From Clostridium sp. 'deep sea' (GTDB taxonomy: Bacteria; Bacillota; UBA994; PWPR01), in contig NZ_CP063353.1 in assembly GCF_014931565.1 (NCBI RefSeq), forward strand, positions 2,790,001 through 2,854,000: a stretch of 64,000 nucleotides of DNA. Reading direction: 5' to 3'. This document shows positions 54,886 through 57,097 of the stretch, piece after piece. Below the pieces are notes generated by a model, which did not search any database, had not been told where the DNA came from, and saw nothing but the letters and a program-made list of their open reading frames with translations. A program made the position numbers and the translations under genes. Every line of letters starts with the position of its first letter. Position 1 is the stretch's first letter.

Positions 54886-55471
54886 AACGCAGATAAGAAG
54901 TTTGTTATCAGAACTTAAAACACGAGAACAAGAAAATAATGAAATGTTTATAGAAGGCTATTTCGCTGTGTTTAATAAGCAAACAGAGTTATGGCCAGGT
55001 GCATTCGAAGAAATTGCGCCTGGAGCTTTTGATGAAACAATGGGCAATGATGTGAGAGCCTTAATTAATCATGATACCTCACTTGTATTAGGTAGAAATA
55101 AGTCCGGAACCCTTGAATTGAAAATTGACTCAAGAGGTCTGTGGGGCAAGATAAGAATTAACCCTAATGATTCTGATGCAGTTAACTTATATGAAAGGGT
55201 AAAACGCGGTGATGTAGATCAATGCTCTTTTGGATTTAATATTGAAAAAGAGACTACTGACTGGCGTGATGATGGATCAGTAAAGTGGACGCTTGAAAAA
55301 GTTGATTTAAGAGAAGTTTCGGTTTGTACTTTTCCAGCTTATGAGGAAACGGGAGTACAGGCAAGGCATGAAGAGGTTGAGCAATATAAGCAAAGGCAGC
55401 TGGAGCAAAGAAAATCACAATTGAGAGAGAGGTTACAAAGTTATGGCACTAAGACAAATAATGATAGCTAA
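54872..55471 (+). CDS. prohead protease, HK97 type
   Basis: 199 residues, serine protease of the U35/S78 type. The catalytic His lies in [14 protein letters not shown] and the Ser in [12 protein letters not shown] at 54872 follows AAAGGTGGTGAG. Its 3' end overlaps the capsid gene by 29 bases. It should cut off the capsid's N-terminal coiled coil during maturation. Confidence 0.92.
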
Positions 55472-56822
55472 GAAAATTGAGCAAAGAAATGTGAGTTTAT
55501 CTGAGTTATTAGAAAAGCAATCCAACCTAGATAAAAGAACATCAGAGTTAGAGGTCGCTATTGATGAGGCAAAGACCGATGAAGAAATTGCTACTGTTGA
55601 GGAAGAAACAGAAAAACTTGAAGCTGACCAAAAAGAACTTGATAAGTCAAAAACAAAGCTTGAAAGTGAAATAGCTGATTTAGAAAGTGAGTTAGAGAAA
55701 TTGAACTCTAATGATCCTGCTCCAAATGAAAGGAGCAATGATAAGAAAGCACAGGGAGGAACAGCATATATGAGAACAGGAAAGTTTTTCGGAGGTATGA
55801 CAAGGGAAGCTTTAGTTGACTTTGTCCATAGAGAGGAAGTAAAAAGTTTCCTTGAACGTACAAGAAGTTTAATAGGTCAGAAAAGAGCTATAACAGGTGC
55901 GGATCTAACTATACCTGAGGTTATGCTTGATTTATTAAGAGATAATTTACATAAGTATAGTAAGTTAATTAGTAAGGTAAGATTAAAGCCTGTACCAGGT
56001 AAGGCTCGCCAAAACATTGCCGGAACTATTCCTGAAGGTGTCTGGACAGAAGCCATAGGGAAATTAAATGAGTTAAAACTTGAGTTTAACCAAGTTGAGG
56101 TTGATGGCTATAAGGTTGGAGGATTTATTCCGATACCTAATTCAATTCTTGAGGATAGTGAACTTAACCTTGCTAATGAGATTTTGCAGGCACTGGGCCA
56201 AGCAATTGGATTAGCAGTAGATAAAGCCATTTGTTATGGTACTGGTGTAAAGATGCCTTTAGGAATAGCCAAAAGACTTGCTCAGACTGCAGAGCCAACT
56301 AACTGGGGAAGCGATGCACCACCATGGACTGATCTACACACAAAAAATCTATTAAAAATTGATGCAAGCAGTATGACCGCTGTAGAGTTTTATGCGGCGT
56401 TAATATTGAAGCTTGGTGTAGCTGAACCAAAATACAGTAATGGTAAAACATTCTGGGCAATGAATCGTCAGACAAAAATGACATTATTATCAAAAGCCCT
56501 TTCATTCAACGCTGCAGGAGCACTTGTGTCATCTCAGCTAAGTACAATGCCAGTAGAGAGTGGAGATATTGTAGAGTTAGATTTTGTTCCAGATGGCGAT
56601 ATTATCGGTGGATTTGGCTCATTGTATTTGCTAGCTGAAAGAGCAGGAGCACAACTAGCTTCAAGCCAGCATGTAAGATTTATCGAAGATCAAACTGTAT
56701 TTAAGGGTACCGCTAGATATGATGGAGCACCTGCAAGAGGAGAAGGTTTTGTTGTAATAAATATCAATAATATTGCACCAACCACCTCTGTTCCTTTTGC
56801 AGCGGATAATGCAAACCCGTAG
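55443..56822 (+). CDS. major capsid protein, HK97 fold
   Basis: 459 residues. Residues about 10-105 form a Glu/Lys-rich coiled coil, the scaffold-like delta domain removed by the protease. The HK97-fold part follows from about residue 110 (TGKFFGGMTREALVDFVH, GADLTIPEVMLDLLRDNL, GTARYDGAPARGEGFVVININ). The stop codon TAG directly follows A-AAC-CCG, a canonical -1 slippery heptamer, so part of the product may be longer (see next entries). Confidence 0.93.
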   Translation: MALRQIMIAKKIEQRNVSLSELLEKQSNLDKRTSELEVAIDEAKTDEEIATVEEETEKLEADQKELDKSKTKLESEIADLESELEKLNSNDPAPNERSNDKKAQGGTAYMRTGKFFGGMTREALVDFVHREEVKSFLERTRSLIGQKRAITGADLTIPEVMLDLLRDNLHKYSKLISKVRLKPVPGKARQNIAGTIPEGVWTEAIGKLNELKLEFNQVEVDGYKVGGFIPIPNSILEDSELNLANEILQALGQAIGLAVDKAICYGTGVKMPLGIAKRLAQTAEPTNWGSDAPPWTDLHTKNLLKIDASSMTAVEFYAALILKLGVAEPKYSNGKTFWAMNRQTKMTLLSKALSFNAAGALVSSQLSTMPVESGDIVELDFVPDGDIIGGFGSLYLLAERAGAQLASSQHVRFIEDQTVFKGTARYDGAPARGEGFVVININNIAPTTSVPFAADNANP

Positions 56823-56851
56823 GCGCGTCCTTATCTGGGCTGGCGATAGGG
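56813..56851 (+). promoter_or_regulatory. -1 programmed frameshift site at the capsid stop
   Basis: Heptamer A_AAC_CCG (56,813-56,819; X-XXY-YYZ) ends just before the TAG. After nine bases a seven-base stem follows, CCTTATC (56,829-56,835) with GATAGGG (56,845-56,851), one G-U pair. Slippage to AAA-CCC keeps the downstream frame open for 92 codons. Confidence 0.65.
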
Positions 56852-57097
56852 GCGTTAGCGTTATCACCTAGTTTCGCTGGTGATGTATACGCATATACAG
56901 CAGATACAACCAATGCTTCAAATACAATTACAGCAACACCATTGAAGCAAGGAGTAACAGTTGTGGTTAAAGTAAACGATGTAGTTCACGAGAATGGTAC
57001 AGCAGCTACATGGCAAGAAGGTGTAAACACAGTTGAAGCAACTGTTAAATACGGTACTACAACTAAAATTTATACTGCTACTGTAACTAAGTCATAA
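56819..57097 (+). CDS. cadherin-like beta-sandwich extension of the capsid protein
   Basis: 92 codons in the -1 frame, with no stop and no plausible own start or ribosome site. The product (LSGLAIGALALSPSFAG, VYAYTADT, GVTVVVKVNDVV, TWQEGVNTVEATVKYG, IYTATVTK) matches the pattern of the cadherin-like beta-sandwich domain: LS-P-F, Y-A, G-N-V, Y-V-T. Similar Ig-like decorations are added to capsid or tail proteins by frameshifting in other phages. It would stand out from the head surface of a minority of subunits and may bind carbohydrate or host surface. Confidence 0.7.
   Translation, partial: VGASLSGLAIGALALSPSFAGDVYAYTADTTNASNTITATPLKQGVTVVVKVNDVVHENGTAATWQEGVNTVEATVKYGTTTKIYTATVTKS

Follow-up and report, generated by a model that had tools for sequence, protein, structure and literature searches.

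A putative −1 frameshift cassette adds a Cadherin-like domain to a prophage major capsid protein and recurs on other virion genes

The major capsid gene of a prophage in Clostridium sp. 'deep sea' ends at a stop codon, behind which the −1 frame stays open and encodes a second domain. The question raised by this locus is how the domain is reached by ribosomes, and whether the arrangement is peculiar to one gene. The window analysed was a stretch of 64,000 nucleotides (contig NZ_CP063353.1, positions 2,790,001 to 2,854,000), and the capsid gene, its neighbours and the elements at its 3' end lie on its forward strand. The capsid gene (55443–56822, stop TAG at 56820–56822) encodes a short form of 459 aa with the HK97 fold; its matches to PF05065 (E 3.2e-29) and to the major head protein family phrog_10 (E 1.5e-44) identify the carrier as a major virion protein. 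A prohead protease of the Peptidase_S78 family (54860–55471; PF04586, E 6.2e-55) is located directly upstream and overlaps the capsid start, and the next head gene (57110–57391; phrog_2550, E 2e-36) has its own start and forms the 3' boundary of the region of interest.

The capsid reading frame ends in GCA_AAC_CCG_TAG. The first-pass annotation had reported an exact A_AAC_CCG heptamer directly before the stop, and this was found at 56813–56819 as an in-frame X_XXY_YYZ site abutting the TAG codon. Also the reported 92-codon open −1 frame was recovered (56819–57094, with a stop TAA at 57095–57097). A stop at 56807–56809 limits the −1 frame on its upstream side and leaves no more than 9 nt of it, from 56810, open ahead of the slip point, so a shift must fall within GCA_AAC_CCG_TAG. 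The first possible start codon of this frame (ATG, GTG or TTG) is the TTG of residue 42, in the middle of the domain; this agrees with the earlier statement that the domain has no start of its own. Because of the closed frame upstream and the lack of a start before residue 42, the domain can be reached only by a shift inside the last three codons. Stop readthrough was ruled out, as a second zero-frame stop lies no more than ten codons after the TAG. By itself the heptamer is weak evidence, and it is conservation that makes the case: a site of the form XXXYYYZ is met about 8 times per kb when all phases are counted, with one other in-frame case within the capsid gene, and an open −1 frame of such length is nothing unusual either, being present after 28 of 162 capsids, where it mostly represents the next gene. 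A_AAC_CCG is not known as one of the most efficient heptamers in bacteria, since the re-pairing from AAC to AAA leaves a wobble mismatch.

The extension matched the Pfam family Cadherin-like (PF12733, E 4.7e-7) with 30.6 bits against a cutoff of 24.2, which upholds the first reading of the domain. The phrog_10 major-head profile continues into it, with profile positions 661–740 following positions 245–659 of the capsid. AlphaFold2, run with 29 aligned extensions, produced an eight-strand model with a mean pLDDT of 96.7, and the profile match and the model together fit an Ig-like beta-sandwich. The best PDB match of the model was a part of 8yk1, a domain of a Bifidobacterium alpha-galactosidase (TM 0.85 by query). 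The best viral structural match was a baseplate J-like protein, and phage decoration proteins and BIG2-domain proteins scored lower. By analogy with published Ig-like domains on phages, the domain may be displayed on the surface and have a weakly adhesive role.

Relatives were collected with capsid queries in four scans of IMG/VR and one scan of genome contigs, which gave about 300 loci. At the position following the capsid C-terminus, some of these loci had no extension; the others had a Cadherin-like domain, either in frame or in the −1 frame, or a different in-frame extension. Relatives carrying the domain as an independent gene with its own start were not found among these loci; it was present only by frameshift or as an in-frame fusion. 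The −1 arrangement was detected in eight further distinct loci (L013, L015, L089, L160, L161, L178, L233 and L267), nine with the window. All nine loci, found by protein similarity within this capsid group, have the stop as the codon immediately after the slip codon, and in all of them a 12-position stem, with 10–12 positions paired, lies in the same register at a fixed 5 nt from the heptamer. The −1 frame is under purifying selection. Differences between the window and L013 in this frame are distributed as 29, 27 and 67 over codon positions 1, 2 and 3, and dN/dS was 0.07–0.23 in close pairs of cassettes, the overlap of the two frames being confined to the slip site.

The in-frame fusions provided a natural comparison that was decisive in weighing these features. 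Thirteen such relatives have a near-identical peptide; in L005, L030 and L085 (Paenibacillus plantarum), for example, the capsid group, the domain and the junction residue are the same, and there is no stop, so that every capsid copy would carry the domain. The fusions pair at 3–10 of the 12 stem positions (median 6, against 10–12 in the frameshift loci; P = 5e-5), which fits the approximately 6–7 of 12 expected from random synonymous codons. A single fusion, L239, pairs at 10 positions and all the others at 8 or fewer. The first-pass annotation had proposed comparing homologues for conservation of the heptamer, and the comparison separated the two groups, the full heptamer being present in eight of the nine frameshift loci and in one of the 13 fusions (L030; P = 2e-4). 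Its central proposal, a capsid extended by −1 frameshifting with a cadherin-like domain, is thus supported, the slip site and the covarying stem being kept in the −1 homologues and lost from almost all in-frame fusions.

The slip sites of the group were AAACCCG, AAACCCT and AAATTTT, with GGACCCT in L089, so that seven of the eight further loci have the full X_XXY_YYZ pattern. These sites bear on whether two tRNAs slip in tandem on the heptamer or whether the P-site tRNA-Pro (or tRNA-Phe) slips alone with the stop codon in the A site. Single-tRNA slippage would agree with the position of the slip codon directly before the stop in all nine protein-found loci, and with L089 (GGA_CCC_T_TGA), which lacks the full heptamer and where only the step from CCT to CCC can re-pair. 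It requires neither the retention of the full pattern in eight of the nine loci nor the coordinated change in L015 and L178, in which AAT TTT replaces AAC CCN so that proline becomes phenylalanine and X_XXY_YYZ is kept. We regard slippage of a single tRNA as possible but doubtful.

The hairpin 3' of the heptamer has arms at 56825–56836 and 56844–56855 and a 7-nt loop, GGGCTGG, at 56837–56843. The first-pass annotation had described a seven-base stem at nine bases; a stem was indeed present, but its extent and spacing had been misjudged, since it comprises 12 positions, of which 11 are paired (three as G-U), and starts 5 nt after the heptamer. The annotation thus underestimated the stem, and it missed its conservation and its sharing with other capsid subfamilies and tail proteins. 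Folded alone, the hairpin had a free energy of about −17 kcal/mol. A longer fold of the window locus by itself favoured another pairing, and the case for the hairpin therefore rests on comparison and not on a single fold. Among the nine sequences, 15 double-changed cells kept pairing, compared with 5.3±1.8 in shuffles, and among 32 distinct sequences 38 did so, compared with 12.6±3.0, both shuffle counts being uncorrected for relatedness. When the partner was slid along, a control that does correct for relatedness, the number dropped to at most 9. The window hairpin scored 50.8 bits against the covariance model, and no Rfam family matched the hairpin at gathering score. Complementarity between the loop and the downstream sequence was 4.6 nt, against 3.2 nt in shuffles, and no pseudoknot register was fixed across the sequences.

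The stem lies within a conserved coding stretch and its loop encodes the conserved motif SGL, and the cassettes recombine often. It could thus be a by-product of coding constraint at the domain start, or an element acting on the DNA level such as a terminator or a recombination site. Nearly the same peptide is nevertheless encoded without the stem in the in-frame fusions. In synonymous recodings of the same peptide, the pairing level of the window was reached in only 0.1% of the draws. GC3 was 0.60 in the first 15 codons of the extension, against 0.17 in the rest of it and 0.25 in the capsid, which indicates that codon choice has been bent locally to form the stem. A terminator would need a T-run, and none follows the stem; also the fixed spacing from the heptamer argues against a by-product or a DNA-level element. 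These explanations were therefore considered highly improbable, and a stimulatory role of the hairpin in frameshifting is the putative function we prefer.

Recurrence on other genes was searched for with a DNA-only pattern in IMG/VR, in which the slip site, the stop and a few stem bases were fixed and most of the 5' arm was left free. Conservation of the fixed bases in its matches is thus no evidence, and the evidence consists of covariation at the free positions and of the set found by protein similarity. The scan produced 40 stretches. In 38 of them the −1 frame encodes a Cadherin-like domain, and 35 of the 40 sources searched matched the covariance model, which had been built beforehand. 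In a few matches (L315, L317/L319, L331 and L353) the stem was degraded, pairing at 7–8 of the 12 positions. The carriers included this capsid group and other phrog_10 capsids fitting the capsid profile of the group poorly or not at all. There were also major tail proteins (phrog_88; L321 and its near-copies) and proteins of about 165 aa of phrog_3099, one of which also matches the major tail protein family phrog_820. The shared part starts with the slip-site codons for Asn and Pro, the unrelated C-termini ending in ...IVNP, ...TPNP, ...VENP or ...TKNP. On these other genes more than 20 distinct cassettes were found, always with the slip codons and the stop and mostly with the hairpin.

In the capsid tree, the nine frameshift rows required eight changes, at least six of them forced by well-supported branches. 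The domain tree placed the cassettes of this capsid group in two well-supported clades, one of which also contains cassettes from other capsids and from tail proteins. The simplest reading is that the unit has been transferred repeatedly as a whole. We consider it likely that the slip codons, the stop, the 12-bp hairpin and the Cadherin-like domain form a self-contained mobile recoding cassette. Such a unit would move between virion gene families, here those of several capsid subfamilies and of two or more kinds of tail protein, and install a partial, frameshift-controlled display on landing, rather than frameshifting having evolved later to rescue an out-of-frame domain. Among about 790 sampled bacterial genomes, searched with the models and the pattern, the cassette was present in two, the window genome and that of L089; as only a few candidates per genome are scored in RNA scans of this scale, its rarity is a rough statement. 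Among the 50,697 phage records searched, no relatives of the domain were found.

Two further explanations do without a programmed shift. In the first, the domain would be a separate gene translated by re-initiation after the capsid stop. Termination-restart is common in phage operons, and an ATG in L267 and a TTG in L089 are located at the start of the −1 frame. The window itself has no start codon near the junction, and most of the relatives lack one too; furthermore, the in-frame fusions point to attachment to the capsid as the functional state. Re-initiation was on these grounds judged very improbable. It is scarcely credible that a one-base indel, by decay or sequencing error, split a capsid-domain fusion gene, even though some relatives have the domain fused in frame at this site and the contig L117 looks like one broken by an ordinary indel, since the break occurs at exactly the same register in the nine loci and on the other genes, slip codons and stop are always found there and the hairpin mostly, the −1 frame is under purifying selection, the L117 break has neither heptamer nor stem, and the window comes from a genome in a single contig. 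L117 (near 3900) was accordingly rejected as a frameshift case; its break is probably a sequencing error or decay, and it serves as a negative control.

Programmed −1 frameshifting as the source of a long capsid form with an Ig-like domain, with slip site, hairpin and domain moving as one cassette, is in our view very highly probable. Most ribosomes would stop at UAG, the product being the capsid protein of 459 residues. Others, delayed by the stop codon and by the hairpin that starts 5 nt downstream, would slip back one base on A_AAC_CCG, tRNA-Pro re-pairing from CCG to CCC with or without tRNA-Asn re-pairing from AAC to AAA. These would read 92 more codons and yield a capsid protein of 551 residues, presumably a minority form. 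The long form is predicted to co-assemble and to show the cadherin-like beta-sandwich on the head surface, where it would probably touch cell-surface or environmental glycans weakly. The portable cassette appears to have been joined to various head and tail proteins on repeated occasions.

T3, A2, SPP1 and Listeria phages provide known examples of coat or tail proteins to which frameshifting adds an Ig-like domain (PMC5009743; PMC8718954). In gene 10 of T3 (10A/10B), a −1 frameshift produces a minor capsid form with an Ig-like extension on the head (Atkins et al. 2016, PMC5009743). The likeness to T3, drawn from the published description, lies in the minor Ig-like capsid form, while the T3 capsid is podoviral. 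In the tail protein gp17.1* of SPP1 the short and long forms occur at 3:1 and the extension is dispensable (PMC8718954), and the cps and tsh genes of the Listeria phage PSA have +1 shifts at CCC (PMC5009743). Both are similar, again by published description, in having a frameshift-appended Ig-fold on a tail or capsid protein, but the SPP1 extension is FN3 and not Cadherin-like, and the shift in PSA is +1 and not −1. Lactobacillus phage A2 is alike in that a −1 shift ends both its major head (gp5) and major tail (gp10) genes and adds an Ig-like domain; its slip site is C_CCA_AAA, a few bases before the stop, and the sequence of the extension differs from the present cassette. Covariance model R1 had no significant match in the first 14 kb, covering the head and tail regions, of A2 or A118.

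The present case differs from these known systems in its domain family, its slip site, its conserved hairpin at a fixed spacing and its movement together with the recoding signal. The combination of heptamer, hairpin and Cadherin-like domain was not found in the open-access literature; subscription papers may hold a description. For Ig-like extensions, a review relays the suggestion that the frame relation reflects a chance landing of the domain followed by selection (PMC5009743). Examples have been described one at a time, with the frame relation ascribed to chance; in the present case the signal appears to travel with the domain, both being passed on and exchanged together among head and tail genes. 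Such a cassette would explain how phages can equip a minority of their subunits with a surface domain while assembly is left undisturbed, and would represent a compact natural display tag. The covariance model allows more such genes to be found; annotation would overlook most of them or record them as a truncated capsid and an orphan ORF.

Some additional arrangements were observed. In A2 (L360), the ends of the head ORF5 (5580) and the major tail ORF10 (7939) have a common block, CCCCAAAAGCGTA, before their −1 Ig-like extensions, a hint that also there a unit of slip site and domain may have been copied between head and tail genes. In L267 (1–1582, same contig as L322), the capsid continues in frame into an Ig-like domain of another kind, behind which comes a −1 cassette with the Cadherin-like domain; this predicts two stacked surface domains, only the second of them controlled by frameshifting. 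In L233 (3889–4452, same contig as L335), the −1 extension of 188 aa consists of the Cadherin-like domain and a second domain of about 90 aa, the latter resembling the in-frame extension of L037. Another in-frame extension of 80 aa (VATPRALPIAGTYTGAQSVAL...) is present at the same capsid junction in L011, L016, L020, L031, L054 and others; with many capsids having another extension at this junction, the capsid C-terminus appears to be a general docking site for surface domains. In the window, a tail-assembly-chaperone-like ORF (59087–59416) ends in GAT_TTT_TTC_AAA_TAA, with T_TTT_TTC at 59404–59410, and the −1 frame past it is open to approximately 59747, which suggests a classical gpG/gpGT −1 frameshift at 59087–59747, an ordinary siphophage feature.
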